DNA from: Haliotis asinina | Lineage: Eukaryota; Mollusca; Gastropoda; Lepetellida; Haliotidae | Direction of reading: 5' to 3' | Length of the DNA: 64,000 nt | Assembly (NCBI RefSeq): GCF_037392515.1 | Contig: NC_090292.1 | Coordinates: 45,001,747-45,065,746 of the forward strand | Notes under the pieces: model-generated | What the model was told of the DNA's origin: nothing | What the model saw: the letters and a program-made list of their open reading frames with translations, nothing else | Database searches by the model: none | Translations under genes and position numbers: made by a program | Shown: in pieces, positions 4,798 to 64,000 of the stretch | Position numbering within the stretch: the stretch's first letter is position 1 | How the letters are laid out: each line of letters starts with the position of its first letter

Positions 4798-4861
4798 GTC
4801 TATATACAGAAAATATTACTCAGAATTCAACCAAGAGATACATTTCCTTTAAAAAAACAAT

Positions 4862-7276: not shown

Positions 7277-7869
7277 TTCTGTAAGAAAAAGTGGTACCAG
7301 AGCTTGGCAACATGGTTCTGTAAGAAATGCCGGTCTCGGGATATGAATTAGCTCCGTAAGAAATACTGATTCCGGAGTATGGCACACGGGCTCTGTAAGA
7401 ATTACTGATTCTGAGGTATGGCACATTGGCTCTGTAAGAAATACTGGTCCCGCGCTATGGCACATTGGCTCTGTAAGAAATACTGGTCCCGCGCTATGGC
7501 ACATTGGCTCTGTAAGAAATACTGGTCCTGGGCTATGGCACACTGGCTCTGTAAGAAATACTGATTCTGGGGTATGGCACATTGGCTCTGTAAGAAATAC
7601 TGGTCCCGCGCTATGGCACACTGGCTCTGTAAGAAATACTGGTCCTGGGCTATGGTACACTGGCTCTGTAAGAAATACTAGTAGTGATTCTGGGGTATGG
7701 CACATTGGCTCTGTAAGGAATACTGATTCCGCGATATAGCAAACTGTCTCTGTAAGAAAAACTGGTCCCAGGGTATGACACACTAGCTCTAGAAGAAATA
7801 CTCGCCCCTGATTATGGCACCTTGGTTGTGTAAAATATTCTGATCTGAGATTATGGTTCCTTGGTTCTA
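7277..7869. repeat. 39-bp minisatellite, about 15 units, interrupted by copy B
   Basis: Units such as CTCTGTAAGAAATACTGGTC plus 19 more bases repeat every 39 bp. One unit near 7674 has six extra bases. Because 39 is a multiple of three and the units lack stops, a long open frame runs on the minus strand (repeated FLTEPVCHS-like residues), but this looks like a by-product. Remnants continue after copy B at 13921-13960, so the retrotransposon landed inside the array. Confidence 0.88.
7859..7869. repeat. Left target-site duplication of copy B
   Basis: CCTTGGTTCTA stands directly before GGCACCC, the first base of copy B. It recurs exactly at 13910-13920 directly after the ACTC tail. Confidence 0.93.
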
Positions 7870-7927
7870 GGCACCCGTGGCGAGCCACCTCCTCGTGGTG
7901 GGTGCTGGGTAACGCCAAGAGCTCGCC
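7870..7927 (+). ncRNA. Hepatitis-delta-like self-cleaving ribozyme at the 5' terminus of copy B
   Basis: P1 pairs GGCACCC (7870-7876) with GGGTGCT (7900-7906), seven pairs starting with a G-U wobble at the cleavage site as in the delta ribozyme. P2 pairs GGCGAGC (7879-7885) with GCTCGCC (7921-7927). P3 pairs ACC with GGT around loop TCCTCGT, close to the delta L3 loop. GG at 7907-7908 can form P1.1 with the loop cytosines. GCCAAG (7914-7919) fits J4/2, with 7915 the presumed catalytic C. P4 is reduced to a four-base linker. Cleavage would occur exactly before 7870, at the target-site boundary. Confidence 0.87.
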
Positions 7928-8472
7928 GACACCCCCGTAGTGGACCCGGGGGGATATTTGGTCCACCAACCCGTTTGCCGTGGGTTGCGGCCCGTGTCGG
8001 TGGAGGAAGGGATCCTGGTGGTTGAGGGCAATAGGTCCCTGCAACTGTGTTCCTGTTGCCTAATACACCACTTTGGCCCTGACTTCACCTAGACGGGAGG
8101 TTGAATAGGCCCGGTTCAACCAATCGGCTGGTCATGCCAAGCCCTGAGCATTGTCATTGTTTTTGCTCAAATTTGACTTTTTCAAATCTTTGTAAATGGG
8201 CCTTTGTCATATAGCTTGTAGACCAGTAATATCTATTGATATATTGATGCCACATTAACCAAACTGTTATTACCTAGAGTCTAATGCCCAGAAGGCGATG
8301 GCTCATGGGTCAATCTGGTGGATTTATTGATCTTGAATTGATACTTCTGCTGGAGTATATCATCCCAGTATCCTTGGTGCTGTCAGTAGGAAACCCACTG
8401 GCATATAGCATTGTCTTTATGATACTCCGTGGTGGGTGGGGAGCTGGGATGATGAAGTTCTATGACTTTACC
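7928..8472 (+). other. Copy B 5' leader
   Basis: GC-rich sequence conserved in D, E and F, with potential stems such as GTGGACC/GGTCCAC and CAACCCG/TGGGTTG. In copy B a frame opens at 8284 (MPRRRWLMGQ) in phase with ORF1. A hydrophobic stretch before ORF1 (LLEYII, then VSLVL and ILRGGWGA) is preserved in frame in B, E and F. ORF1 may therefore start upstream, or the leader may be conserved as RNA. Confidence 0.6.
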
Positions 8473-9676
8473 ATGATACCCCCAAAACAACTCAAACGTA
8501 CTTTAGAGGATAGTTCATCTTCTGATGATGACACAGTCTCCAAAGGCAAATCTGACCATTGGTCTCGTTATTTAGGGATTTCTTCTTCAGATGATGGTCC
8601 GTTGAAACTGAATCCGTTTGCCCTGTCAAAAGCGATTTATGGCATTGCTGGTGACGTTGTGTCAATGAAAAAGATGCGATCTGGTCTTATATTACTTGAA
8701 TGCAAATCAGCGTTTCAGTCATCTACACTCTTAGCTGTTAAGCATCTCGTGTCCGTACCTGTTACTGTGTCTCCACACAAAACTCTCAACAGTTCTAAAG
8801 GCATTGTCAGAGACCGAGAACGTTGTCTGCTAGACATGTCTGAAGATGAGATAGCGTTTGAACTAAAAGACCAGGGTGTAACAGGTGTAAAACGTTTTAC
8901 AAGTCGGCAAAATGGTCAGATTGTAAACTTAAACACGTATCTGCTCAACTTTTCTGTTCCTGTTCCACCTTCATCCATCAAAGCAGGGTACTGCAATATC
9001 AATGTTGATAAGTACATACCGAACCCGCTTCGGTGTTACTCATGTCAAAAGTTTGGTCATGGTGCTAAATCTTGTACCAACAGCAAGAAATGTCATCGCT
9101 GTGGAGAACTTGCTCATGACACGTTAGATTGTCCAAACAACCCTAAATGCGTTAATTGCTCTGGCGATCATGCTGCCTCATCAAAATCTTGCCCTGTCTG
9201 GCAACAACAACATCAGATAGTGAAACTTAAACATGAAAGAAACATTACTTTCGCAGAGGCTAAACGTTTGGTTGCACAAGACAACACTCCAGTTGCAACT
9301 GTCATACTCTGCAGCTGTTACCCGTCAACGTACTAAGACTGTTAAATCAGTTGAATGCCAGACTGAAATCACTTGGGTGAATACTGAGACGTATTCTACG
9401 TGTGAAATGCAAACTGTTGCTTCCACGCAAACAGCATCACAATCCCGTCCACAATCTCGTTCACCATCACCTGTTATCGTGAATGCTAGCAAGACAGTGA
9501 ACTATTCAAAAAAGTCAGATCGGGTTCCAAAGAGTCAACGGAATCCGGTACAAATATTTAATAGATATCAACTTCTGGAAGATATGGATGTCACTCCTCA
9601 TCACCGTGTGCGCCAAAAAAGTCATTCGCCACGGTCCAGGAACAGATCGCCTGTGTTACCACCTAATGTAACATGA
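8473..9676 (+). pseudogene. Copy B ORF1 (gag-like, three CCHC knuckles), one frameshift
   Basis: The proposed start at 8473 (MIPPKQLKRTLED) is in the same place as MAYETP of the other copies; 8284 is an in-frame alternative. An RRM-like region precedes three knuckles: CYSCQKFGHGAKSC, CHRCGELAHDTLDC and CVNCSGDHAASSKSC. A single-base frameshift near 9300 moves the Ser/Gln-rich and basic tail (RSRNRSPVLPPN) to another frame, ending at TGA 9674-9676. The stop overlaps the ORF2 start as ATGA, which suggests coupled termination and reinitiation. Its usual role is RNA binding and RNP assembly. Confidence 0.9.
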
Positions 9677-12600
9677 ATAATACACTTATCCAGTGGAACT
9701 GCAGAGGCCTTAGGACCAACTTAAATGAAATACAATTATTAGTACAAGATTTTCAACCATCAGTTTTCTGTCTCCAGGAAACATATCTTAAGCAGACTGA
9801 TAAATTTGACTTACGTCAGTACAGCTCTCACCATTCCTTTTCTCCTCCGGGTGACAAAGCCACTGGAGGCTCCTCTATCTTGGTGAGGCAGGGTATAATA
9901 CACAGCCCTGTTGATCTCACTACTAACCTTCAAGCTGTTGCAGTTCGGATTTCGTTACACATTGCGTATACTTTATGCTCTTTGTATATCCCTCCATCTT
10001 CAAACCTCCAGAAATCTGACCTTCAAGCTCTGTATGATCAGCTTCCTCATCCCTGCATACTCATGGGTGATTTGAATGGACATAATCCTTTATGGGGGAG
10101 TAATGTTATCAATACCAAGGGGAAAATAATAGAAGATTTTATTTCTGACAACAGTCTCTGCATATTTAATGATGGTACACACACATATTTACACCCTGCT
10201 ACAGGTAGCTATTCTGCCTTGGACGTTACACTCACAGATGCAGATCTTCTGAATGAATTTTCATGGTCAGTTCATGATGATTTATGTGGAAGTGACCATT
10301 TCCCAACACTTCTCTCAGTCAATAACCCGTCTGATGTTCCACCCTCATCAAGGTGGAATTTTTCAAAGGCTAACTGGTCTAAATTCACATCATTGTGTAC
10401 TGAGAAACTCAAACATGAAACGTTCCAAAATATTGCTGACCCCATTCAATTGTTTTCAGATACACTGCATACTATAGCTACCGAAACAATTCCTAAGTCC
10501 TCTGTGCATCCACACATTCGTAAGCCATGGTTTGATGGCGATTGCAAACAGGTTAGGAAAAACAGGAAGAAGGCGGAAAAATATTTTCGCAAACATCCAA
10601 CTGTACATAATTTGAACAATGTTAAAGTAACCAGAGCTAAAGCTCGACGTACATTCAAGCAAAATAAACGGAAGTCATGGAGAGACTATGTCTCCAAGAT
10701 TAACTCCCGCACACCTATATCAAAGGTGTGGAATATGGTACAAAGGATCAAGGGCAAGGGTTCCAAAACAAGTGTTAAACACCTTAAAGACGGAGATCAC
10801 ATTTTGGAAGATGCTTCAGATATTGCAAACAAACTTGGTGAAACATTAGCTAAACATTCGTCTTCATCAAACTATCTTCCTGAATTCCAGAGGTACCAGA
10901 AGTTAGAAGAAAAGAAAATCATTAATTTCACCTCTGACAATGGTGAAGACTACAACGAAGTATTTTCCTTACATGAACTACAAACTGCTCTAGTGCAAGC
11001 TCATGATACAGCAACAGGGGCTGATAATATTCACTATCAGCTCTTGAAGCATTTGCCTGATTCATGTCTTGAGGTACTTTTAGACATATTTGATGAAATT
11101 TGGACTTCAGGAACATTCCCTCCCTCTTGGCGGAATGCTATTGTGGTTCCTATACCTAAGCCTGGTAAAGACCATTCAGATGCATCTAATTATCGACCTA
11201 TATCACTAACTAGCTGCGTTTGCAAGACTATGGAACGAATGGTAAATAATCGTTTAGTGTGGTATTTGGAGACCAATAATCTGATTTCTAACATTCAGTG
11301 TGGTTTCCGTAAAAACAGAAGCACTATTGACCATTTGGTTCGATTGGAATCTTTCATTAAGAATTCTATTGTTAATAACCAGCATGCTGTATCTATATTT
11401 TTCGACCTTGAAAAGGCTTATGATACTACATGGAAACATGGTATTTTAAAAGATTTACATGAATTTGGTTTACGAGGTCGTTTGCCTCATTTCATATCAC
11501 AGTTTTTAACGGGCAGACAGTTTCAAGTCCGAGTGGGATCTACCCTCTCTGATCATTACCAACAGGACCAGGGTGTTCCACAAGGCAGTATTTTGTCTGT
11601 GACTTTATTTAGTATTAAAATAAATAGTCTTTCAAAGGTTTTAACAGATTCAATCAATGGTTCTCTTTTCGTGGATGACTTTAATATTTCTTGTCGTGGC
11701 AAAAACATGCGAACCATTGAGAGACAGTTACAAATCTGTCTCAACAAAATTCATAAATGGTGCCTTGAGAACGGGTTTAAATTTTCTCAATCTAAAACAA
11801 ACTGCATTCACTTCTGCAGAAAATACAAACCTCATAAAGACCCTGACTTATTTTTAAATGGTGCACCCATCAAAATTGTCAAGGAAGCTAAGTTCCTTGG
11901 TCTCATCTTTGACTCACACTTAACCTTTCTGCCACATATTAAATACCTAAAAACCAAATGCCTGAAGGCGCTCGATTTGTTGACAGTCGTTTCAAATACA
12001 AAGTGGGGAGGAGACCAAACAACCCTCCTACATTTATACAGGTCACTCATCAGATCTAAACTGGATTACGGCTCCATTGTCTATGGTGGAGCCTGTAAAA
12101 GTAACCTCAAAATACTTGATTCTATCCATCACCAAGGTCTAAGACTTTGTCTTGGATCATTCCGAACTTCTCCTGTTGACAGTCTATACGCTGAAGCAGA
12201 CGAACCTTCTCTTGGCCACCGTCGTATTAAATTATCTTTACAGTATCTCACTAAACTGTATTCAAATAAGTCCAATCCTGCATATAACTGTGTCTTCAAT
12301 CCCCCGTATGGGGATTTGTACAATAAGATGTCTTCCCTTGTTCCGACTCTTGGACTGAGAGTTAAACCTTTTCTTTCTGCTGCTGGCATTGAGCTGGATA
12401 ATATAGCTCCTTCTCGCTTGTTTTCTTCTCCCCCTTGGCAACTGGTTAGACCGCAAGTTGACCTTACATTAAGTAAATATAAAAAATCAGGAACTAATGA
12501 CTTACAATACAAACAGGAATATAATCAATTAAAAAGTAAGTATAGTACATATAAATCCTTATTTACAGATGGGTCCAAGGATGGTGGCGCAGTTGCTTGT

Positions 12601-13311
12601 GCTACTGTCATTGGATCCAGAACAATATCTTCTAGATTACCAAATAGCAGTTCCATTTTTACAGCAGAAGCACATGCCATATTAACAGCCCTAAACTATA
12701 TTAAAAAACACTCTAAATATAAACAATATATTATTTATTCAGACTCTCTTTCATGCCTCCAGGCTATTAAAAATGTATCTTCTCAGCATTCACTTTTAGC
12801 TGACATTGTTGAATTGTATAATGAACTTGCTACTGGCCAATATGACATCGTCTTCTGTTGGTTACCCAGCCATGTTGGAATCTCTGGTAACACAATGGCT
12901 GATCGTGCTGCCAAGGTAGCACTCAACAAATCTGTGACACCACTTCTCATACCCTATTCTGATTATAAGGCTGTCATAAGATCATATATCCGTGATCTAA
13001 TGCAAAAGAAGTGGGACACCCAAGTAGGTATCAATAAATTACATGGAATAAAGCCCTATATCAGTTATACCCACTTGGGTTGTCAGTCCAGATTTGAAGA
13101 GGTTGTTATACGACGATGTCGCATTGGCCATACGCGATATACTCACGAACACTTGTTAAAAGGTGAGGATCCTCCGTTTTGTATCCCTTGTGATGAGAGA
13201 ATCACTGTTAAGCATATCCTGCTTGATTGTGTTGATTTTGCCATCACAAGGGATAAATATTTCAATGAGAAAACTGTAAAGGATCTTTTTTATAACGTTA
13301 ATCATCATTAA
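9673..13311 (+). CDS. Copy B ORF2: endonuclease, reverse transcriptase, RNase H (1212 aa)
   Basis: One open frame carries all expected motifs. The endonuclease has QWNCRGL near residue 7, LQETYL, GDLNGHNPLWG near 130 and SDH at 207-209. The reverse transcriptase has NYRPISLTS, FFDLEKAYD, GVPQGSILS and FVDD at 666-669. RNase H has TDGS at 965-968, SDSLSC and SHVGISGN near 1065. The C-terminus has a Cys/His pattern (CIPCDE, then VKHILLDC). The protein nicks target DNA and copies element RNA onto it. The start ATG overlaps the ORF1 stop. There are no breaks, so this protein could still be made, although the ORF1 of this copy is shifted. Confidence 0.95.
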   Translation: MNNTLIQWNCRGLRTNLNEIQLLVQDFQPSVFCLQETYLKQTDKFDLRQYSSHHSFSPPGDKATGGSSILVRQGIIHSPVDLTTNLQAVAVRISLHIAYTLCSLYIPPSSNLQKSDLQALYDQLPHPCILMGDLNGHNPLWGSNVINTKGKIIEDFISDNSLCIFNDGTHTYLHPATGSYSALDVTLTDADLLNEFSWSVHDDLCGSDHFPTLLSVNNPSDVPPSSRWNFSKANWSKFTSLCTEKLKHETFQNIADPIQLFSDTLHTIATETIPKSSVHPHIRKPWFDGDCKQVRKNRKKAEKYFRKHPTVHNLNNVKVTRAKARRTFKQNKRKSWRDYVSKINSRTPISKVWNMVQRIKGKGSKTSVKHLKDGDHILEDASDIANKLGETLAKHSSSSNYLPEFQRYQKLEEKKIINFTSDNGEDYNEVFSLHELQTALVQAHDTATGADNIHYQLLKHLPDSCLEVLLDIFDEIWTSGTFPPSWRNAIVVPIPKPGKDHSDASNYRPISLTSCVCKTMERMVNNRLVWYLETNNLISNIQCGFRKNRSTIDHLVRLESFIKNSIVNNQHAVSIFFDLEKAYDTTWKHGILKDLHEFGLRGRLPHFISQFLTGRQFQVRVGSTLSDHYQQDQGVPQGSILSVTLFSIKINSLSKVLTDSINGSLFVDDFNISCRGKNMRTIERQLQICLNKIHKWCLENGFKFSQSKTNCIHFCRKYKPHKDPDLFLNGAPIKIVKEAKFLGLIFDSHLTFLPHIKYLKTKCLKALDLLTVVSNTKWGGDQTTLLHLYRSLIRSKLDYGSIVYGGACKSNLKILDSIHHQGLRLCLGSFRTSPVDSLYAEADEPSLGHRRIKLSLQYLTKLYSNKSNPAYNCVFNPPYGDLYNKMSSLVPTLGLRVKPFLSAAGIELDNIAPSRLFSSPPWQLVRPQVDLTLSKYKKSGTNDLQYKQEYNQLKSKYSTYKSLFTDGSKDGGAVACATVIGSRTISSRLPNSSSIFTAEAHAILTALNYIKKHSKYKQYIIYSDSLSCLQAIKNVSSQHSLLADIVELYNELATGQYDIVFCWLPSHVGISGNTMADRAAKVALNKSVTPLLIPYSDYKAVIRSYIRDLMQKKWDTQVGINKLHGIKPYISYTHLGCQSRFEEVVIRRCRIGHTRYTHEHLLKGEDPPFCIPCDERITVKHILLDCVDFAITRDKYFNEKTVKDLFYNVNHH

Positions 13312-13909
13312 ATACTTGAATTTTTAAAGGAAATAGAATTGCTACATAAATTCTGAATATGTTTTGTACATAGATAATATATCTTTTATGCATGGTATTG
13401 TAAATTAGCAACTGCGATCGTTAGTGGCTGTGCCCTCGAGGTAGCGTAAAATTATTGTCCTCCCAAGAGGGTACGTAAGTCCCCAAAACTTTCAAAGTCG
13501 ATTTTGCTCAACCATACTTTTTAGTCGTAGTGTGTTTGTTGTTTTAATTTCTGGCTAAATCGTCCTATCATCGCCAGTGTCTGAAGCGATGGTGTAAATC
13601 CAGCCAGGGTCCATGCAGGTAGCAAAGGTACTGTAAGTCCCCATGGACCCTGGCATGGTGATCTACCTTCAGCTGCTGGTGATGTGTATAGCCCGTGTTT
13701 TATCTTGTCTTGTCCAAGTAGTTCTATCAGTTTTACCGTTCCACACTAGTTTTATCCGTAGCTGTGATATTCTAGTTGTTTTACTGTCCTTTGACGACAG
13801 TTTTTTTTTATAGTATGCACATTTCCCATTTCAATTTCCAATCTGTTCTCGTCACGATATGGCTGAAATATTGCCGATGTGACGTTAAATATTAACTCAC
13901 TCACTCACT
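13312..13909 (+). other. Copy B 3' UTR with ACTC tail
   Basis: It contains a stem of CCTCGAG/GAGGGTAC type near 13430-13470, the strong hairpin at 13604-13653, a TTTTACTGTCCTTTG block, and the terminal block GGCTGAAATATTGCCGATGT before the ACTC repeats. The terminal block is shared with SINEs in this window. Confidence 0.85.
13604..13653 (+). ncRNA. Conserved 3' UTR hairpin of the LINE (copy B)
   Basis: CCAGGGTCCATG pairs perfectly with CATGGACCCTGG, 12 pairs, around a loop conserved between copies. Copies E (30068-30117) and F (24028-23979) have different bases at two stem positions, mostly with matching partners. This supports an RNA structure, perhaps the signal read by the reverse transcriptase. 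Confidence 0.8.
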
Positions 13910-13920
13910 CCTTGGTTCTA
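13910..13920. repeat. Right target-site duplication of copy B
   Basis: CCTTGGTTCTA, identical to 7859-7869. The following 40 bp resume the 39-bp minisatellite (AAAGAAATACTTGTCCCAGG). Confidence 0.93.
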
Positions 13921-20340: not shown

Positions 20341-20924
20341 CCCTTGGTATGGAATGGAGAGTCACCTCCTCGTGGTGAGTGCTGGGTTATGCTAAGAGCT
20401 TGCCAACACACACGTAGTGGACCCGTGAGGATATTTGGTCCACCAACCCGTTTGTCGTGGGTTGCGGCCCTGTGTCGGCGGAGGTGGGGATCCTGCTGGT
20501 TTTTGAGGGCAATAGGAGCTTGCAATCGTGTTCCTGTTGCTCAATACACCACTTTGGCCCTGACTGCGCCTACACGGGTGGTCGAATGGGCCCGGTTCGA
20601 CCAATCGGCTTGTCATGCCAAGTCCTGTGCATGGAGTATTATTTACATTTATCAATGCACACATATCATTGGGAATTGTTGTAACTTTGGACTTGACTTT
20701 ATTATCTAAAACATTTTTGATTTTGAAATATGTTGTTCTGAAATTTGCCTAGAGTCTTATGCCAGAAGGCAGTGGCTCATGGGCCAAACTGGTGGAATTA
20801 TTAATATATTAATTCTTCTGCTGGAGTATATCATCCGGGTATCCTTGCTGCTGCAAGCTGGAGGCCCACATTGTCCTTGTGATACTCCGTGGTGGGTGGG
20901 GAGCTCGGATGATGAACCATATTA

Positions 20925-24263: not shown

Positions 24264-24275
24264 TATTTACATGTC
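24264..24275. repeat. Left target-site duplication of copy E
   Basis: TATTTACATGTC before GGCACCC. The right copy is at 30364-30375; the first T is ambiguous with the ACTC tail. Confidence 0.92.
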
Positions 24276-24333
24276 GGCACCCGTGGCGAGCCACCTCCTC
24301 GTGGTGGGTGCTGGGTAACGCCAAGAGCTCGCC
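24276..24333 (+). ncRNA. Hepatitis-delta-like ribozyme, copy E
   Basis: The same fold as at 7870-7927, with all 58 bases identical to copy B, including the G-U closing pair of P1, the TCCTCGT loop and GCCAAG. It again starts exactly at the element boundary. Confidence 0.87.
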
Positions 24334-24853
24334 GACACCCCCGTAGTGGACCCGGGGGGATATTTGGTCCACCAACCCGTTTGCCGTGGGTTGCGGCCCT
24401 GTGTCGGTGGAGGAAGGGATCCTGGTGGTTGAGAGCATGGGAGCAGGACTATTGCTCCTATTGCTCAACACACCACTTTGGCCCTGACTTCACCTAGACG
24501 GGTGGTTGAATGGGCCCGGTTTAACCAATCGGCTGGTCATGCTAAGCCCTGTACATGTAAATGTTGTTCACAAATTTGCGAAAATATGTAATTTTTTGTC
24601 TTGGCTTCATGATGATTCATTTGTATTTCGATTGCACAATTCAAATTTCGTAACTTGCCTAGAGTCCTATGTCCAGAAGGCAGTGGCTCATGGGCCAATC
24701 AAGTGGAATAAATACTTTTGTGTTATTCTGCTTGAGTATACCATCCGGGTATCCTTGGTGCTGCAGGCAGGAAACCCGCCTGTTTTTAGCATTGTCCTTG
24801 TGATACTCCGTGGCGGGTGGGGAGCTCGGATGATGAAACAATATAAACTTACC
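24334..24853 (+). other. Copy E 5' leader
   Basis: Conserved stems as in copy B. An open frame continuous with ORF1 reaches up to 24506, because the hydrophobic LLEYTIRVSLVLQAG and ILRGGWGARMMK stretch has no stop. The nearest well-placed ATG is at 24854 (ACCATGG). Confidence 0.6.
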
Positions 24854-26140
24854 ATGGCTTACGAAACTCCCCTAAAAAAACCAAAACGTCCTCTTGATAC
24901 TACTGATCCTGATGTTGAAGACCAAGGACTGTCCACATCCATTGACTACTGGCCACGGTTTATTGTAATTGAGACCACTGACAACACTCCATTAAAGGTG
25001 AACCCTTTTGCGGTATCAAAAGGCATACAGGGCATTGCAGGTGATGTTAGAAACGTTAGACGTTTACGAACAGGTTCTTTGCTTGTTGAGTGTAATAGGA
25101 GGCAACAGGCAACCAATCTCCTTTCAACAAAATCATTTGTAGGCATTCCAGTGTCAGTCTCTCCTCACCGTACTCTTAACACTAGTAAGGGTATTGTGAG
25201 AGACCGTGATAGACTATTTGCGGATATGCTGGAAATTGACATCGCTGTAGAGATGAAGGACCAAGGTGTGTTATTTGTGAAACGTTTCACAACCCGAAGA
25301 AACAACCAGATCCAACAAACCAACACCTATTTATTTTCATTTTCCACTCCAACGGCTCCAAAATCAATAAAGGCCGGCTACTGTCACATCAAAGTGGAAA
25401 CGTTTATTCCTAATCCACTCAGATGTTTCAAGTGTCAAAAGTATGGTCACGGTGTAAATTCCTGCACATTGTCTGTTGTGTGTGCTCACTGCGGTGAGAA
25501 GACCCACACAACAGAAGATTGTGACAGTAATTACAAGAAATGCACCAATTGTTCAGGAGACCATTCGTCTTTCTCAAAAGAGTGTCCGATTTGGAAGTAC
25601 CAGATGGAAATAAACAAACTAAAATTTACTCAAAATATCAGCTTTGCCGAAGCGAAACAACTTGTTCAAAGATGCGATCCACAAGAAACATATGCTTCTA
25701 AAACAAAACCATCATCTGAACCATCCTCTAAGGCTTCTACGTCTTCTTCAGCTGCCCAAACAAACTTGACTTGGGTGCACACTGATTCCCCAGAGGTTTT
25801 TTCACCCACTACTTCTACTCAGACCGCTGAGCTACTTCCTCGCATGTCGCAAAGTCAATCAGGGCCAGCTTCGGATTCATCATCACAGCCACCTGCAAGG
25901 TCTCAATCTTTGTCAAATGTCCAACAAATTCCTAAAGGAAAAACTAAACCTATGCCTGATTCTTCAAAAAAGCAAAGTGGCAGAGCCCCAAAAGGGTCTG
26001 AAAACAGAATTAAGCTTTATAATAAATACGGATCACTTGAGGACATGGACGTGTCCGAAAACGTCCAATCAAGGGCACACAGCTTGTCGCCCTCAAAAAA
26101 AGTACGGGGTAGATCCCCAATCAACCCGCCCAAACGATAA
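24854..26140 (+). CDS. Copy E ORF1: RNA-binding gag-like protein, 428 aa, intact
   Basis: I chose the ATG at 24854 because ACCATGG is a good context and MAYETP is shared with A and F. Residues 1-40 are Lys/Pro-rich (KKPKRPLDT). An RRM-like central part follows, then three knuckles from about residue 191: CFKCQKYGHGVNSC, CAHCGEKTHTTEDC and CTNCSGDHSSFSKEC. A Ser/Gln/Pro-rich stretch and a basic tail (KKVRGRSPINPPKR) complete it. In I-type elements this protein coats the element RNA and carries it to the nucleus. It ends in TAA at 26138-26140, overlapping the ORF2 frame. Confidence 0.93.
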   Translation: MAYETPLKKPKRPLDTTDPDVEDQGLSTSIDYWPRFIVIETTDNTPLKVNPFAVSKGIQGIAGDVRNVRRLRTGSLLVECNRRQQATNLLSTKSFVGIPVSVSPHRTLNTSKGIVRDRDRLFADMLEIDIAVEMKDQGVLFVKRFTTRRNNQIQQTNTYLFSFSTPTAPKSIKAGYCHIKVETFIPNPLRCFKCQKYGHGVNSCTLSVVCAHCGEKTHTTEDCDSNYKKCTNCSGDHSSFSKECPIWKYQMEINKLKFTQNISFAEAKQLVQRCDPQETYASKTKPSSEPSSKASTSSSAAQTNLTWVHTDSPEVFSPTTSTQTAELLPRMSQSQSGPASDSSSQPPARSQSLSNVQQIPKGKTKPMPDSSKKQSGRAPKGSENRIKLYNKYGSLEDMDVSENVQSRAHSLSPSKKVRGRSPINPPKR

Positions 26141-29100
26141 TCCATTGCAAAAATATTGTACAGTGGAACTGTAGAGGCCTAAGGACCAATTTCAACGAGT
26201 TACAGCTACTTGTCCAGGATTTTGCACCATCCGCTTTCTGTCTCCAGGAAACCTATCTGAAGGAGACAGACACTTTTGATCTACGTCAGTTCACTTCATA
26301 TAATTGTTTTTCACCTCCAGGTGATAGGGCCACTGGAGGGTCTTCAATTCTTGTAAAACAGGATGTTATCCATAGTCCTGTAACACTCACAACTAGTCTA
26401 AAAGCTGTTGCAGTGAGACTAACTCTTCACGTTACCTTTACACTATGCTCTTTATATATTTCACCTTCTTCAGCACTCCAGCAGTCTGATCTTCAAGCTC
26501 TCTATGACCAACTTCCTAAACCTTGTATTTTAATGGGTGATCTCAATGGACATAACCCGATTTGGGGTGGTACAAACACAAACTCTAAAGGTAAAATACT
26601 GGAAGATTTCATAGCCAATAATGACTTGTGTATATACAATGATGATTCAAGCACTTATCTGCACCCTGCAACTGGCACCTACTCTTCTCTGGATCTGTCT
26701 CTTGCAGACCCTTCTCTACTAAATGAATTTGAGTGGTCAGTCCACAATGACCTCTGTGGAAGTGACCACTTTCCAACTATCTTAACAGCAACTAATCCAT
26801 CTGATTCTCCAACTTATACAAGATGGAATTTTTCCAAGGCAGACTGGTCGTTATTTAAAACGTTATGCACATCTAAACTACGACCGCAGTGTTTCAGTGA
26901 AGTAACTGATCATATTCGGCTTTTTTCTGACACTTTAAATGAAATAGCTGATGAGTGTATACCTAGGTCTTCTACTGCTCCACATGTACGGAAACCATGG
27001 TTCAATTCCGATTGTAGGCAAGCCAGAAAAGCGAGGAAAAAGGCGGAAAATTATTTCCGCTATCATCCAACTGTCCACAACTTGAATAAGTTTAAAATCC
27101 TCAATGCGAAAGCCCGTCGTACCTTCAACCATAACAAACGGCAATCTTGGAGGAACTACGTTTCCAGGATTAATTCGCGCACGCCAATGTCCAAGGTATG
27201 GAACATGGTTCAAAGAATTAAAGGTAAAGGTTCTAAATCTTCAGTTCACCATCTCAAAGATGGTGATAATTTAATTACTGACAAGTCTCATATTGCAAAT
27301 AAAATTGGCGAAACACTTGCCAAAAATTCTTCATCGGCAAATTATGTCCCTGAGTTTCAGAGATATCAGAAACAACAGGAAAAGAAAAAACTTAATTTCG
27401 AATCAAATAATGGTGAAGATTATAATGAAGTTTTCTCATTACATGAGTTATATACAGCTCTTGACCAAGCTCATGACACTGCAGCAGGTGATGACAATAT
27501 TCATTATCAGCTACTGAAACATTTGCCTGAACCATGTCTGGTCACACTTTTAGATATATTTGACAAAATATGGACGTCTGGAGCATTTCCTCCTTCGTGG
27601 CGTAATGCCATTGTAGTCCCAATACCAAAACCTGGCAGGGATCATACAGATCCGTCGAATTACAGACCGGTATCTCTCACTAGCTGTGTCTGTAAAACCA
27701 TGGAACGTATGGTGAATAATAGATTAGTTTGGTATCTTGAAACCAATAATCTCATTACAAATATTCAGTGTGGTTTCAGGAAAAATCGCAGTACCATTGA
27801 TCATTTGGTACGCTTAGAATCCTTCGTGAAAAATGCAATCGTAAATAAACAACATGCTGTATCAATTTTCTTTGATCTTGAGAAAGCTTATGATACGACC
27901 TGGAAGCATGGTATTTTGAGGGGTTTACATGAATTTGGATTGAGAGATCGTTTGCCTCTTTTTATATCAGAGTTTTTAAAAGACAGGCAATTTCAAGTCC
28001 GAGTAGGTTCTACCCTGTCTGATCATTATAATCAGGATCAGGGTGTCCCTCAAGGTAGTATTTTGTCTGTCACTTTGTTTAGTATTAAGATCAACAGTTT
28101 ATCCAAGGTTTTAAATGATTCAATTGATGGATCATTATTTGTGGATGATTTTAATATTTCTTGTCGTGGTAAAAATATGCACACTATTGAAAGACAACTG
28201 CAGTTATGTTTGAACAAAATAGATAAATGGTGTCTTGAAAATGGCTTCAAATTTTCTAAATCCAAAACTAATTGCATACATTTTTGTAGAAAATATAAGC
28301 CGCATAAGGACCCTGAACTATCTTTAAATGGCACTCCCATCAAGGTTGTAAAGGAGGCCAAGTTCCTGGGTTTAATTTTCGATTCTCATTTAACCTTCTT
28401 GCCACACATTAAATCCCTTAAAGCTAAATGTCTGAAGGCACTAGACTTGTTAAAGGTTGTTTCAAATTCAAAGTGGGGAGGGGATCAAGTTACCCTCCTT
28501 CACTTATACAGATCATTGGTACGATCTAAACTTGATTATGGCTCCATTGTGTATGGTGGAGCCTGTAAAAGCAACCTCAAACTATTAGATTCTGTCCACC
28601 ACCAAGGTCTAAGACTTTGTCTTGGATCTTTTAGAACCTCACCTGTTGCCAGTCTCTATGTTGAGGCTGATGAATCATCTCTTTCACAACGCCGTATAAA
28701 ATTGTCTTTACAATACATTACTAAACTATATTCTAATAAATCTAACCCAGCCTATGACTGTGTGTTCAATCCGCTTTATGAAAATTTGTATGACAAGAGG
28801 TCTTCTCTTGTTCCACCTCTAGGACACAGAATTAAACCCTTTCTTTCTTCGGCCAGAATTGAGTTGGAAAACATAGCTCCCTCCAGTCTCCTTTCTTCTC
28901 CTCTTTGGCAGTTGGTTAGGCCACAAGTTGACCTAACATTAACTTCATTTAAAAAATCAGAAACTAATGAATTACAATATAAACAAGAATATAATCAATT
29001 AAAACATAAATATAGCAATTACAAACCCTTATTTACAGATGGGTCCAAGGACGGTGGTGCAGTAGCTTGTGCCACTGTCATTGGATCGAGAACAATATCT

Positions 29101-29826
29101 TCTAGACTTCCCGAGAACAGCTCTATTTTTACTGCAGAAGCAAACGCCATATTAACTGCTCTTCAATATATTCAAAGACACCCTAAACATAAACAGTATA
29201 TAATCTATTCAGACTCTCTCTCTTGCCTTCAGGCTATTAAACATATTTCTTGTAAACATCCACTTTTGATAGAAAGTATTGAATTGTACAATAATCTTGC
29301 TACTGGCCAGTGCGACATTGTTCTTTGTTGGTTACCTAGTCACGTTGGCATTTCTGGTAACACAATGGCCGATCTTGCTGCTAGAGCAGCACTCAGCAAA
29401 TCTGTGACACCACTTCTTATTCCATACTCAGATTATAAAGCTGCAATAAGATCTTATATCCGTGATCTGATGCAGAAGAAGTGGGACACCCAAGTGGGTA
29501 TAAATAAATTACATGAAATAAAACCTTATATCGGTTATACTTACTTGGGTTGTCAGTCCAGATTTGAGGAGGTCATTATGCGACGATGTCGCATTGGCCA
29601 TACGAGGTATACTCACGAGTATTTATTAAAAGGTGAAGATCCTCCGTTTTGTATCCCTTGTGATGAAAGAATCACAGTCAAGCATGTCCTGCTTGACTGT
29701 GTTGAATACTCCATCACAAGGGATAAATATTTTAATTCACGAACTTTGAAGGATCTTTTTAATTCTGTTAGCTCTCATTTAATTATTGCATTTTTAAAAG
29801 AATTAGATTTGCTAAATGAATTGTAA
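26137..29826 (+). CDS. Copy E ORF2: endonuclease, RT, RNase H, intact but without a 5' ATG
   Basis: The frame is open from 26113 (after a TAG) to the TAA at 29824-29826, about 1229 codons counted from the ATA at 26137. The endonuclease starts at VQWNCRGLRTN (26158) and carries GDLNGHNPIWGG and GSDHFP. The RT has GVPQGSILS and FVDD. RNase H has TDGSKDGG, SDSLSC and SHVGISGN. The C-terminus has CIPCDE and VKHVLLDC. The first in-frame ATG is at 26413, inside the endonuclease, so a functional protein would need a non-AUG start. The ATA of ATAA lies where copy B has ATGA. Confidence 0.94.
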   Translation: MIHCKNIVQWNCRGLRTNFNELQLLVQDFAPSAFCLQETYLKETDTFDLRQFTSYNCFSPPGDRATGGSSILVKQDVIHSPVTLTTSLKAVAVRLTLHVTFTLCSLYISPSSALQQSDLQALYDQLPKPCILMGDLNGHNPIWGGTNTNSKGKILEDFIANNDLCIYNDDSSTYLHPATGTYSSLDLSLADPSLLNEFEWSVHNDLCGSDHFPTILTATNPSDSPTYTRWNFSKADWSLFKTLCTSKLRPQCFSEVTDHIRLFSDTLNEIADECIPRSSTAPHVRKPWFNSDCRQARKARKKAENYFRYHPTVHNLNKFKILNAKARRTFNHNKRQSWRNYVSRINSRTPMSKVWNMVQRIKGKGSKSSVHHLKDGDNLITDKSHIANKIGETLAKNSSSANYVPEFQRYQKQQEKKKLNFESNNGEDYNEVFSLHELYTALDQAHDTAAGDDNIHYQLLKHLPEPCLVTLLDIFDKIWTSGAFPPSWRNAIVVPIPKPGRDHTDPSNYRPVSLTSCVCKTMERMVNNRLVWYLETNNLITNIQCGFRKNRSTIDHLVRLESFVKNAIVNKQHAVSIFFDLEKAYDTTWKHGILRGLHEFGLRDRLPLFISEFLKDRQFQVRVGSTLSDHYNQDQGVPQGSILSVTLFSIKINSLSKVLNDSIDGSLFVDDFNISCRGKNMHTIERQLQLCLNKIDKWCLENGFKFSKSKTNCIHFCRKYKPHKDPELSLNGTPIKVVKEAKFLGLIFDSHLTFLPHIKSLKAKCLKALDLLKVVSNSKWGGDQVTLLHLYRSLVRSKLDYGSIVYGGACKSNLKLLDSVHHQGLRLCLGSFRTSPVASLYVEADESSLSQRRIKLSLQYITKLYSNKSNPAYDCVFNPLYENLYDKRSSLVPPLGHRIKPFLSSARIELENIAPSSLLSSPLWQLVRPQVDLTLTSFKKSETNELQYKQEYNQLKHKYSNYKPLFTDGSKDGGAVACATVIGSRTISSRLPENSSIFTAEANAILTALQYIQRHPKHKQYIIYSDSLSCLQAIKHISCKHPLLIESIELYNNLATGQCDIVLCWLPSHVGISGNTMADLAARAALSKSVTPLLIPYSDYKAAIRSYIRDLMQKKWDTQVGINKLHEIKPYIGYTYLGCQSRFEEVIMRRCRIGHTRYTHEYLLKGEDPPFCIPCDERITVKHVLLDCVEYSITRDKYFNSRTLKDLFNSVSSHLIIAFLKELDLLNEL

Positions 29827-30364
29827 ATAGATGAATATTTTATGCTTGGAAGTTTGAATTAGTAACTTAGAGTGTTAGTGGCTGTATCCTCGAGGGGGGT
29901 TAAAGCACTGTAAAATTATTGTCCTCCTGAGAGGATACGTAAGTCCCAAAACATTTGAAGTCAAATTTGATCTTCCATTTTGTCTTAGCCGTTGAATATG
30001 TGTCATTTTAATTTGTGGCTAATCTTGCTTACAATCACCATCAACTGAGGGGATGATGTAAATCCAGCTAGGGACCATGCAGGTAGCAGAAGTACTGTAA
30101 GTCCCCATGGCCCCTAGTATGGTGATCTACCTTCAGTTGTTGGTGATCTATATAGCCTGGTTTTATATTGGATTGTCTGAATAGGAATATTAGTTTTAAC
30201 TTTTCACGCTAGTTTTATTTCTTATTGTGATATTCTAGTTGTTTTACTGTCCTTCGTCGACAGGTTTTTATCATATACATAGATTCCTTTTTTAAGAATG
30301 CTCCGGTCACGATATGGCTGCAATACTGCCGATGTGACGTTAAATGTTAACTCACTCACTCACT
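29827..30364 (+). other. Copy E 3' UTR and ACTC tail
   Basis: It contains a GTATCCTC/GAGGATAC stem (about 29884-29938), the hairpin at 30068-30117, and the terminal block GGCTGCAATACTGCCGATGT with ACTC repeats. Confidence 0.88.
30068..30117 (+). ncRNA. Conserved 3' UTR hairpin (copy E)
   Basis: CTAGGGACCATG pairs with CATGGCCCCTAG, with one mismatch. The second pair is T-A where B and F have C-G, a compensatory change. Confidence 0.78.
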
Positions 30365-30375
30365 ATTTACATGTC
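30364..30375. repeat. Right target-site duplication of copy E
   Basis: TATTTACATGTC, as at 24264-24275. Copy F resumes directly afterwards. Confidence 0.92.
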
Positions 30376-41298: not shown

Positions 41299-41356
41299 GG
41301 CGAGCTCTTCCCGTTACCCAGCACCCACCACGAGGAGGTGGCTCGCCATGGGTGCC
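41299..41356 (-). ncRNA. Delta-like ribozyme of copy F, catalytic C replaced
   Basis: P1 (GGCACCC/GGGTGCT), P2 (GGCGAGC/GCTCGCC), P3 and the TCCTCGT loop are conserved. J4/2 reads GGGAAG instead of GCCAAG, so the presumed catalytic cytosine is a G. The fold should form, but cleavage is expected to be lost. The 5' end again coincides with the target-site duplication. Confidence 0.82.
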
Positions 41357-53009: not shown

Positions 53010-53994
53010 AGGACCAGGGCTTAAATTCGAACATGCACAATATTTTCATAAACATAACAAGAGTTGAATCAAGAAGTTAGCAGTCTATTTAAAGCAAAAC
53101 ATGAACTTGAAACTGTTATGGCACTCACATACTAAATGTAGTAATATCAAACTGCCCTCATCAGCGCTTGACCTACTTAGTCGCTGTTGACCACTCGCTC
53201 TCTTGCACTCAATAAAACTGTTTCTCACTCTCACACCAAGACTTTGTTGAGGGGAAATTATATTTTGTGACCCATTACTTTAGATTTGACCATGTCGCAT
53301 TGAACATGATACCTCTACTGTGAATCCTTGTATCATTCTTTGTGCTTAATTTGAGAAATCTGAGACTTATCAGTATTATCTCTTGCTGGTGGGATTTCTT
53401 ACTCCTTTTTTCGTCAATGACAGTAATCAGTGTGAAGGTCTCATTCAAACAGCTCTTCCTCAGAATCAAATGGATCATCAGCATTATTGCCACCCATATC
53501 GACTTCCGCCAAACTGGAGAGGAATTCACAGAACTTCCAGCAATCTTCCATTCAGGTGAACTACTGGAACTTCATTTCTATTTTCGGCAATGCCACACAA
53601 CTTAAAAGAGCGGGTAACTGTAGATGTCTGAATGGCTTCGACTGATTTGGAAGTAGGAAGACTGTTTTCTGTTTCCGGCGGTGTATGCCTTTTCTCCATT
53701 TACAAAGCAGTCTTATCATTCTTTGTGAAGTCTGGATTTGAAGTGTCCATTCACTCCTCCAGAGACATCAAAGTGGTTGGAGACAGAGCTTTATCGACTT
53801 CCATGAGCAACAGTGACGAGGTAGTGATTTAAGCCCACTAAACAACCGCTGTTTGACAGGTACAAGCAAATGTTGCTAGGAAGCTCACACTCTGGAATGT
53901 TAACCAAACCCTTTAAGATGACCATGGCTTTTACCACTCGCCCATCCACGCACATGCTCAACACAACTGTAAATCAGTTCTTCTCCTTCTCCTA
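53010..53994. other. Mostly unrecognised; decayed coding-like text on the minus strand
   Basis: At about 53835-53440 the minus strand has stretches with protein character in broken frames, for example SEEELFE preceded by GGNNADDPFD, and TSKSVEAIQTSTVTRSFKL. No family is recognised. The piece 53180-53290 shares words with 47540-47650 (TTTGTGACCCATT), a dispersed repeat. Confidence 0.35.
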
Positions 53995-54264
53995 CCCGTG
54001 AAGGTCTCGGGGTAGAAAAGGCCTTCAGCTATCCCATGCTTGCCATAAAAGGCGACTATGCTTGTCGTAAGAGGCGACTAACGGGATCGGGTGGTCAGGC
54101 TTGCTGACTTGGTTGGCACATGTCATCGGTTCCCAATTGCGCAGATCGATACTCATGTTCTTGATCATTGGATTGTCTGGTCCAGACTTGATTATTTCCA
54201 GACCGCCGCTATATAGCTGTAATAATGCTGAGTGCAACGTAAAACTAATCTCACTCACTCACTC
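53995..54264 (+). mobile_element. Full-length SINE, plus strand
   Basis: It runs from CCCGTGAAGGTCTCGGGG through GGCGACTATGCTTGTCGTAA, GGGATCGGGTGGTCAGGC and ATTGGATTGTCTGGTCCAG to the tail AATAATGCTGAGTGCAACGT and ACTC repeats. It is the same family as 16721-16977. A target duplication is not obvious. The 5' half shares a block with the leader of LINE copy A. Confidence 0.9.
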
Positions 54265-54489
54265 TTTTTGTTCTCTGCATGTGCCGCGTCGACAGTTTTA
54301 TTTTCTGAGAAGTCAAGAGTGTTTCTGCCAGTCATGTCCACGTAGCGTTTCGTCCATGCTGAAGATGACGTTCCTGAACAATCCAAGAGTGAGTTGCACA
54401 CAGATGAGAGTCGTATCCAATAGAGATAAAAGATGCAGGAATTTCGAGGCCTCCACGTAGTAGGTATGAACGTATGGCAAGCCGTTTTC

Positions 54490-60089: not shown

Positions 60090-60717
60090 GAAAATGCTGG
60101 AGTACCAGTTATGTGGACGACACTTGGCAAGAATACAGGTAGGTTTTATCAGCCTGGCACCAGCATGCATGGACGACGTAGTTGTTCTTGTCAGAGTGCC
60201 AAGACACTGGAATGGAGTCGACAAGAATAGTAACGGTGCATGTAAAGATACATAAAGCAATGGAACGACTATTACATTCTGCACGTTATAGTTTCCAACT
60301 TGTACATTTTTAAAACTTTCAGACCTATATTCAAGTGTTAAAATGTATAACACCACTAGTAATGATTGGATTGCAGATTGTCAAGACAGTCTGCATTTCA
60401 TTGTACATTGTAATTATTCCCTTGTACACTATATACACTTTGTACTGTGTTTCCACAATGACAAGCTACAGTTGAAACGTAGCATTCGGGAAAATGGAGC
60501 ATGATTGCGTTAGGTGAAGAAATTTGAAGACCGTTGATTTCGTACAACGGGTTTCGCAGGGACTTCATATTTTCTGTATATCTTATCTGTCAAATTCAAG
60601 TTATTCATTTTCTTTGAATTGCTGACACGATCACTTCTTTAGCGTGGGATCATGAATCTTAAACAACTCTATTTAAAGTGTTCTAGTTTCATTAGCATCA
60701 TACATGAAGAACAGTAA
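60090..60717. other. Intergenic or intron, nothing recognised
   Basis: No coding motif. It precedes the satellite array. Confidence 0.4.
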
Positions 60718-63700
60718 CGCTCCACGCTATGAAGGCCACATTAATGACTTCCTTTAAACACAGTAACACTCTCTCTATGAAGGCCACATTAATGACTTCC
60801 TTTAAACACAGTAACGCTCCACTCTATGAAGGCCACATTAATGACTTCCTTTAACCACAGTAACACTCTCTGTATGAAGGCCACATTAATGACTTCCTTT
60901 AAACACAGTAACACTCCACTCTAGGAAGGCCACACTAATGACTTCCTTTAAACACAGTAACACTCTCTCTATGAAGGCCACATTAATGACTTCCTTTAAA
61001 CACAGTAACACTCCACTCTATGAAGGCCACATTAATGACTTCCTTTAAACACAGTAACACTCACTCTATGAAGGTCACTTTAATGACTTCCTTTAAACAA
61101 AGTAACACTCACTCTATGAAGGCCACATTAATGACTTCCTTTAAACACGGTAACACTCCACTCTATGAAGGCCACATTAATGACTTCCCTTAAACACACT
61201 AACACTCACTCTATGAAGGCCACATTAATGACTTCCTTTAAACACAGTAACACTCTCTTTATGAAGGCCACATTAATGACTTCCTTTAAACACAGTAACA
61301 CTCACTCTATGAAGGCCACATTAATGACTTCCTTTAAACACAGTAACACTCTCTCTATGAAGGCCACACTAATGACTTCCTTTAAACACAGTAACGCTCC
61401 ATTCTATGAAGGCCACATTAATGACTTCCTTTAAACACAGTAACACTCTCTCTATGAAGGCCACATTAATGACTTCCTTTAAACACAGTAACACTCACTC
61501 TATGAAGGCCACATTAATGACTTCCTTTAAACACAGTAACACTCTCTCTATGAAGGCCACATTAATGACTTCCTTTAAACACAGTAACGCTCCATTCTAT
61601 GAAGGCCACATTAATGACTTCCTTTAAACACAGTAACACTCACTCTATGAAGGCCACATTAATGACTTCCTTTAAACACAGTAACGCTCCATTCTATGAA
61701 GGCCACATTAATGACTTCCTTTAAACACAGTAACGCTCCATTCTATGAAGGCCACATTAATGACTTCCTTTAAACACAGTAACGCTCCATTCTATGAAGG
61801 CCACATTAATGACTTCCTTTAAACACAGTAACACTCTCCCAAGTTAGGCCACATTAATGACTTTCTTTAAACACAGTAACACTCTCTCTATGAAGGCCAC
61901 ATTAATGACTTTCTTTAAACACAGTAACACTCACTCTATGAAGGCCACATTAATGACTTTCTTTAAACACAGTAACGCTCCACTCTATGAAGGCCACATT
62001 AATGACTTCCTTTAAACACAGTAACACTCTCTCTATGAAGGCCACATTAATGACTTCCTTTAAACACAGTAACACTCCACTCTATGAAGGCCACATTAAT
62101 GACTTCCTTTAAACACAGTAACACTCACTCTATGAAGGTCACATTAATGACTTCCTTTAAACACAGTAACACTCACTCTATGAAGGCCACATTAATGACT
62201 TCCTTTAAACACAGTAACGCTCCACTCTATGAAGGCCACATTAATGACTTCCTTTAAACACAGTAACACACTCTCTATGAAGGCCACATTAATGACTTCC
62301 TTTAAACACAGTAACACTCCACTCTATGAAGGCCACATTAATGACTTCCTTTAAACACAGTAACACTCACTCTATGAAGGTCACATTAATGACTTCCTTT
62401 AAACACAGTAACACTCACTCTATGAAGGCCACATTAATGATTTCCTTTAAACACAGTAACACTCCACTCTATGAAGGCCACATGAATGACTTCCCTTAAA
62501 AACAGTAACACTCACTCTATGAAGGCCACATTAATGACTTCCTTTAAACACAGTAACACTCTCTCTATGAAGGCCACATTAATGACTTCCTTTAAACACA
62601 GTAACGCTTCACTCTATGAAGGCCACATTAATGACTTCCTTTAACCACAGTAACACTCTCTCTATGAAGGCCACATTAATGACTTCCTTTAAACACAGTA
62701 ACACTCCACTCTAGGAAGGCCACACTAATGACTTCCTTTAAACACAGTAACACTCTCTCTATGAAGGCCACATTAATGACTTCCTTTAAACACAGTAACA
62801 CTCCACTCTATGAAGGCCACATTAATGACTTCCTTTAAACACAATAACACTCACTCTATGAAGGTCACTTTAATGACTTCCTTTAAACACAGTAACACTC
62901 ACTCTATGAAGGCCACATTAATGACTTCCTTTAAACACGGTAACACTCCACTCTATGAAGGCCACATTAATGACTTCCCTTAAACACAGTAACACTCACT
63001 CTATGAAGGCCACATTAATGACTTCCTTTAAACACAGTAACACTCTCTCTATGAAGGCCACATTAATGACTTCCTTTAAACACAGTAACACTCACTCTAT
63101 GAAGGCCACATTAATGACTTCCTTTAAACACAGTAACACTCTCTCTATGAAGGCCACACTAATGACTTCCTTTAAACACAGTAACGCTCCATTCTATGAA
63201 GGCCACATTAATGACTTCCTTTAAACACAGTAACGCTCCATTCTATGAAGGCCACATTAATGACTTCCTTTAAACACAGTAACACTCTCCAAAGTTAGGC
63301 CACATTAATGACTTTCTTTAAACACAGTAACACTCTCTCTATGAAGGCCACATTAATGACTTTCTTTAAACACAGTAACACTCACTCTATGAAGGCCACA
63401 TTAATGACTTCCTTTAAACACAGTAACGCTCCACTCTATGAAGGCCACATTAATGACTTCCTTTAAACACAGTAACACTCTCTCTATGAAGGCCACATTA
63501 ATGACTTCCTTTAAACACAGTAACACTCCACTCTATGAAGGCCACATTAATGACTTCCTTTAAACACAGTAACACTCACTCTATGAAGGTCACATTAATG
63601 ACTTCCTTTAAACACAGTAACACTCACTCTATGAAGGCCACATTAATGACTTCCTTTAAACACAGTAACGCTCCACTCTATGAAGGCCACATTAATGACT

Positions 63701-64000
63701 TCCTTTAAACACAGTAAGACTCTCTCTATGAAGGCCACATTAATGACTTCCTTTAAACACAGTAACACTCCACTCTATGAAGGCCACATTAACGACTTCC
63801 TTTAAACACAGTAACACTCACTCTATGAAGGTCACATTAATGACTTCCTTTAAACACAGTAACACTCACTCTATGAAGGCCACATTAATGACTTCCCTTA
63901 AACACAGTAACACTCACTCTATGAAGGCCACATTAATGACTTCCTTTAAACACAGTAACACTCTCTCTATGAAGGCCACATTAATGACTTCCTTTAAACA
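60718..64000. repeat. 48/49-bp satellite array with 1790-bp higher-order period, runs off the window
   Basis: More than 65 units of the type TATGAAGGCCACATTAATGA plus 28-29 more bases. Variants ACTCTCTC and ACTCACTC give 48 bp, and ACTCCACTC or GCTCCACTC gives 49. Rare variants recur in order at a distance of 1790 bp: TTAACCACAG at 60851 and 62641, CTAGGAAGGC at 60921 and 62711, AAGGTCACTT at 61071 and 62861. A later marker (AAGTTAGGCC, 61841 and 63292) is only 1451 apart, so about seven units were lost in the second copy. Short frames reading MKATLMTSFKHSNT repeats are by-products of the 48-bp length. Confidence 0.95.

Follow-up and report, generated by a model that had tools for sequence, protein, structure and literature searches.

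The stretch of Haliotis asinina DNA analysed here, 64,000 nucleotides long and hereafter called the window, carries on its plus strand a LINE copy, E1, flanked by two exact 12-nt copies of the target-site duplication TCCTTGGTTCTA (7858-7869 on the 5' side and 13909-13920 on the 3' side). Because these duplications bound the element, its first base is G7870; a 39-bp minisatellite array adjoins it just upstream. The first 58 nt of E1 (7870-7927) contain the putative ribozyme that is the subject of this study, and a conserved 5'-UTR module follows directly at 7928-8155, also found in the other window copies and in the locus L002 described below. Further downstream on the same strand lies an ORF1-like frame with zinc knuckles (8278-9336), whose cysteine motifs were read by eye. 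This frame is shorter than that of E2, another copy in the window, and Pfam gave no match on 8392-9336. ORF2 (9676-13311) matched the Pfam models for endonuclease (PF03372/PF14529), reverse transcriptase (PF00078) and RNase H (PF00075), and the element ends with an (ACTC)n tail at 13895-13908. The AP-type endonuclease, reverse transcriptase and RNase H encoded in ORF2 place the element in the I superfamily of LINEs, as either Nimb or Ingi, in agreement with the original prediction of an RNase H-bearing I-type LINE. In a survey across molluscs, Nimb and Ingi are the only clades of this superfamily besides an unknown one (PMC10294476).

As RNA, the core at 7870-7927 reads GGCACCC GU GGCGAGC C ACC UCCUCGU GGU GGGUGCU GGGUAACG CCAAGA GCUCGCC, and its segments fit the nested double pseudoknot of a delta-like (HDV-like) ribozyme with a predicted cleavage site 5' of G7870. 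P1 comprises 7 bp between GGCACCC (7870-7876) and GGGTGCT (7900-7906); it begins at the first base of the element, G1, and its G7870.U7906 pair adjoins the predicted cleavage site, as in HDV-like ribozymes. After a 2-nt J1/2 between the 5' strands of P1 and P2, the 7-bp P2 (GGCGAGC at 7879-7885 with GCTCGCC at 7921-7927) crosses P1 as it does in a delta ribozyme. P3 and L3 occupy 7887-7899, the P3 strands ACC and GGT lying at 7887-7889 and 7897-7899 and L3 (UCCUCGU) at 7890-7896. The letters of the pyrimidine-rich L3, the 3-bp P3 and the GG after P1 are present in four window copies. The catalytic-type cytosine of J4/2 is located at 7915 and is followed by CAAG. Thus, the P1, P2, loop and J4/2 segments that had been claimed were each found where they were predicted within 7870-7927. 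The same cannot be said of the P4 described there as reduced to four bases: P4 is absent, and the 8-nt joining strand GGGUAACG (7907-7914), which replaces P1.1/P4, alone lies between P1 and C7915. This strand starts with GGGUAA (7907-7912) directly after P1, and its GG may pair as P1.1; it is gap-free in an alignment of loci from both sets of divergent copies described below. Forms lacking P4 have been published before (minimal and theta ribozymes, silkmoth R2 and an abalone example).

The window holds further copies of the element. E2 (24276-30363, plus strand) begins with the same ribozyme as E1 (24276-24333) and lies between perfect 12-nt target-site duplications TATTTACATGTC at 24264-24275 and 30364-30375. 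On the minus strand, E3 extends from 41356 down to 23725 with a perfect 13-nt duplication TATGAGGTTATTT, and in its ribozyme (41299-41356) the catalytic C is changed to G. Thus each of the window copies with flanking target-site duplications, namely E1, E2 and E3, has G1 of the ribozyme as its first base. The older copy E4 retains a ribozyme remnant at 20355-20404 (plus strand), in which the 5' strand of P1 is lost, six of the seven P2 pairs are formed and CUAAG is kept; no target-site duplication was seen for E4 in the window. E5, near 4800 on the minus strand, begins after the ribozyme, and its 3' end falls outside the window. BLAST pieces, duplications and matching element coordinates point to nested insertions across 20355-50508, E2 sitting within the 3' region of E3, and E3 within the older E4. 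The first 100 nt of E1 and E2 are identical (100/100), as against 192 of 378 four-fold sites in ORF2 (51%) and 975/1211 for the proteins. Such identity exceeds what the fold needs and may stem in part from exchange or recombination of 5' ends among subfamilies, or from a signal at the DNA level.

The source genome (1,143,192,487 bases in 159 contigs) was then searched with the 408-nt 5' end, and 42 matches were listed from the 40 scored of 3,242 first-look candidates. Forty of the matches listed span the whole 408-nt query at 99-100% identity, one of them being the window's own, and the other two are short pieces beside two full-length ones. The 39 other full-length copies, which were examined, are the best-scoring ones and are hence near-identical by selection. 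Every one of these 39 best-scoring copies begins at the same base, 38 with GGCACCC and one with GGTACCC, and their upstream 30-mers fall into 35 distinct sequences without a common pattern. No copy among them extends upstream of this start into related flanking sequence, and the claim that the ribozyme forms the exact 5' end of the LINE is therefore borne out both by the three bounded window copies and by 39 of 39 best-scoring genomic copies. The 58-nt core is identical to that of E1 in 25 of the 39, and the catalytic C is unchanged in all of them. The position changed most often is the base after the catalytic C, which may vary freely in delta ribozymes and differs from E1 in 5/39 copies; position 14 comes next, with changes in four copies that share one flank.

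As the four window copies alone gave no covariation, divergent genomic copies were taken. Pattern one fixed most of P3-L3 and the GGG and required a change at P1 position 35, while pattern two fixed similar letters, demanded changed letters at two sites of the P2 5' strand and put no constraint on the P2 3' strand. Genome-wide, pattern one gave 86 matches and pattern two 1,234, and the reversed-pattern control gave 0 in each case. The 30 loci per set were the first in contig order (set one from C1-C4, set two from C1 only) rather than a random sample; the 30 loci of set two comprise 18 distinct sequences, some intact and some decayed. Over the resulting 60 loci, the 5'-UTR module of the LINE follows directly after the ribozyme at 56, ORF1 or ORF2 is found on the same strand within 1.5 kb at 55, and module and ORF occur together at 53. 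Upstream similarity reaching the junction was observed for seven pairs of loci. In six of them identity is 99.5-100% across all 400 nt, as expected of segmental duplicates, and in the seventh it is 93.8% over about 200 nt. The ribozyme is thus the mark of the 5' end in a large family of LINEs.

In set two, P2 is fully paired at 23/30 loci and has at least 6 of 7 pairs at 29/30, with a mean of 6.73 pairs compared with 4.67 if the 3' strand were that of E1. The corresponding numbers for set one are 18/30 and 26/30. Four P2 positions have switched together with pairing kept, giving the pair types GGCGAGC/GCTCGCC, GAAGAGC/GCTCTTC, GAACGGC or T/GCCGTTC and GAACAGC/GCTGTTC. The covariation set consisted of the 60 divergent loci with E1, E2 and E3 (E4 left out), i.e. 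63 sequences, 48 of them distinct. In this set, both partners had changed while still pairing in 65 cells, of which 62 belong to P2 and 3 to P1; the cells do not represent independent events, and most of them come from a few subfamilies. Shuffles gave 22.9 such cells (s.d. 6.4) and 0/500 reached 65; structures slid by 1-3 columns gave 3 to 8. The number of pair types was not distinct from shuffles (87/500 reach the observed one). Within P2, 93.2% of cells are paired and double changes occur in five of the seven pairs. Hence the long-range P2 helix proposed in the original prediction is supported by 62 double-changed cells among 63 sequences, and, by the pattern of these substitutions, P2 pairing is under selection.

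P1 hardly covaries (3 cells), set one having been chosen for a change in P1 and set two varying little there. In set one, a P1 pair is broken at 29/30 loci and P1 is intact at 1/30, as the copies were selected for change there; in set two, without such selection, P1 is intact at 22/30. P3 is invariant and L3 nearly so in the 48 distinct copies, with most of their letters imposed by the search patterns, and the constancy of P3, most of L3 and the GGG is therefore no evidence. The catalytic C is kept in 57/60 divergent copies (27/30 and 30/30 in the two sets), and all four letters occur at the base after it. It is absent in E3 and at the loci L091, L092 and L095. In L091 and L095 the following base is a C (ACAAGA), so that a variant form of J4/2 is conceivable there. 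L075, L080 and L081 lack some or most of the 5' strand of P1.

Rfam gave no match at 7870-7927 at gathering cut-offs. Below the cut-offs, E1 scored 24.0 bits (E 0.25; gathering 50) with HDV_ribozyme (RF00094) and 22.7 bits (E 0.05; gathering 44) with HDV-F-prausnitzii (RF02682), and the alignment of the latter spans G1 through J4/2. The same two models gave 25.6 and 21.4 bits for E3, also below gathering. HDV-F-prausnitzii gave 30.7, 27.0 and 21.3 bits for the three genomic loci scanned, L084 (of the GAAGAGC type), L083 and L060, respectively. Thus at E1, E3 and these three loci the best covariance-model matches were delta ribozymes, with scores of 21-31 bits against gathering scores of 44-50 for models from which the present ribozyme differs by having no P4. 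The Rfam gathering score is a curated detection threshold and not a defining structural feature, and P4-less members have been published. For E4 the sole match was a weak one to drz-agam-1 (15.9 bits, E 1.7), and neither HDV_ribozyme nor HDV-F-prausnitzii matched. The best nested fold of the core was a different hairpin, with a stability no better than that of shuffles (z -0.49). Thermodynamic folding programs cannot score such a pseudoknot. The 291-nt 5' region gave z -1.64 versus shuffles, and from these folding models the flank of E1 may compete with the ribozyme fold. The stem of the alternative hairpin of the core (positions 11-15 with 23-27) loses its pair at position 12 in the subfamilies of the GAAGAGC and GAACGGC types, whose P2 remains paired.

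That the fold arose by chance in a GC-rich 5' UTR is hardly credible. A loose descriptor does match two extra places in the window, but with 51 matches across 100 dinucleotide shuffles of the whole window this is background, and 47/21557 shuffles of the GC-rich 281-nt stretch match as well. The strict descriptor, however, found just two loci on both strands of the 64 kb (7870 and 24276), both of them element starts, and no match on both strands of the same 100 shuffles; the exact coincidence with the 5' end and the covariation of P2 likewise speak against chance. A fossil ribozyme without cleavage, whose conservation would reflect recent descent from a few master elements, is a very improbable account. 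It would fit the near-identity of the 39 copies, which are the best-scoring ones and share the core sequence of E1 in 25 cases, and also the loss of the catalytic C in one window copy and 3/60 divergent copies, but four positions of P2 have changed without loss of pairing, which indicates that selection acted while the subfamilies diverged.

We regard it as possible, though on the unlikely side, that the 5' block is primarily an internal promoter for RNA polymerase II, made up of an initiator and a downstream element, with the fold secondary or an added function, like the trypanosomatid Pr77. The core has CGTG at +25 to +28 (7894-7897), which corresponds in motif and position to the promoter element of L1Tc (PMC4748587), and the identity of all first 100 nt between E1 and E2 beyond the need of the fold would suit a DNA-level function. 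Yet the geometry of the ribozyme (7 nt of P1, 2 nt of J1/2, 7 nt of P2, then P3) already dictates where CGTG falls, so that its position does not count as independent evidence; in the divergent copies the motif is constant because the search patterns fixed it, and the paired changes on both sides of P2 are not explained by a DNA promoter. The CGTG motif is accordingly a lead only.

HDV-like ribozymes are known at the 5' ends of other LINEs, namely R2, R4/Dong, baggins and RTE (PMC3774820). The likeness lies in a cleavage site at the 5' end of the element, which is predicted in the present case; the LINE described here belongs to a different clade, has an RNase H and is not rDNA-specific. According to the same source, cleavage by the R2 ribozyme falls within the 28S gene in most species tested, and silkmoth R2 and an abalone example are also P4-less (PMC3774820). 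Another such case is L1TcRz/Pr77 of L1Tc/ingi, where an RNase H-bearing LINE has an HDV-like ribozyme at its very 5' end together with CGTG at +25 to +28; there, however, the host is a trypanosomatid, and promoter activity has been demonstrated in L1Tc (PMC4748587 and PMC4035085). The original prediction named no such ribozyme for RNase H-bearing I/Nimb elements in molluscs; RNase H-bearing relatives that carry one are known in L1Tc/ingi. Among the papers listed in a search of mostly open literature, none dealt with an I-superfamily LINE of molluscs that carries a delta-like ribozyme, which is weak evidence of absence.

In an HDV-like ribozyme of Haliotis discus, 5 nt replace P4 (PMC3774820, citing Webb and Luptak 2011). 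The likeness to the present ribozyme is the missing P4, the two being compared by description only. The present ribozyme may be the same as that of Haliotis discus, because the SINE and ACTC tails in the window are presumably typical of abalone. Minimal drz and theta ribozymes also show an HDV-like fold without P4 and with a catalytic C in J4/2, and nearly all of them occur in Caudoviricetes phages, theta often next to tRNAs (PMC10879173). Assignment to the theta ribozymes was rejected: the present copies mark the 5' ends of LINEs in a genome of 1.14 Gb, not a cleavage site beside a tRNA in a phage genome.

Relatives were also sought elsewhere. Two 5'-region patterns, a SINE-like-motif pattern and an ORF2 alignment found nothing in viral contigs, and no related locus was found in phages. 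Among genome contigs, four loci related to the ORF2 of the LINE (L001 to L004) were present in bacterial assemblies, their hosts being a Sulfurovum MAG and Solemya symbionts; they are probably animal contamination or chimeric scaffolds, and for L002, in a Solemya velum symbiont record, our guess is host contamination or a chimera. In the L002 LINE, a 61-nt piece of the 5'-UTR module (window 7967-8155; L002 4020-4207) is 88.5% identical, and the module motif TGTCGTAAGAGGCGACTAA is present in E5 and L002. No ribozyme was found in L002 by a descriptor looser than the strict one, by Rfam or by model R1. The longest word common to both L002 flanks is 8 nt, and because such words are too short to place its 5' end, L002 argues neither for nor against the ribozyme. 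Within the window, a SINE at 53990-54265 has an (ACTC)n tail like that of the LINE and a head with the GTCGTAAGAGGCGACT motif of E5. Their similarity suggests that the LINE mobilises the SINE, at whose start no ribozyme was seen by eye. A 48-bp tandem array of 68 copies occupies 60711-64000 and runs past the window end.

Taken as a whole, 7870-7927 is very probably a P4-less delta-like self-cleaving ribozyme that forms the 5' terminus of an I-superfamily LINE and frees its 5' end, so that the element would probably process its own 5' terminus. Read-through transcription from the surroundings would carry the element into a longer RNA, which would fold into the double pseudoknot with P1 and P3 stacked and P2 as the long-range helix. 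Because folding programs favour another hairpin, refolding during transcription would be needed. The predicted cut just before G7870 would release the element RNA with G1 first, and as the released RNA would retain the whole ribozyme, new copies would inherit it. The role in 5'-end release is proposed because of the comparison with R2 and L1Tc (PMC3774820, PMC4035085); the ribozyme might also help translation or integration.

A more far-reaching idea, which we consider rather doubtful, is that RNase H-bearing LINEs of the I superfamily (Ingi, Nimb) inherited from a common ancestor a 5'-terminal P4-less delta-like ribozyme that also acts as a promoter through CGTG at +25 to +28, and have kept this module by common descent from trypanosomatids to molluscs. 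This genome, with its 1,234 copies of rewritten P2 besides the E1-like ones, would then be an exceptionally large natural collection of delta-like ribozymes. A delta-like ribozyme tied to an RNase H-bearing LINE in a mollusc would be a new carrier of a known trick. The 1,234 copies with changed P2 offer a natural test set for the bases that a P4-less ribozyme needs, and the same copies could show whether losing cleavage stops the spread of the element.
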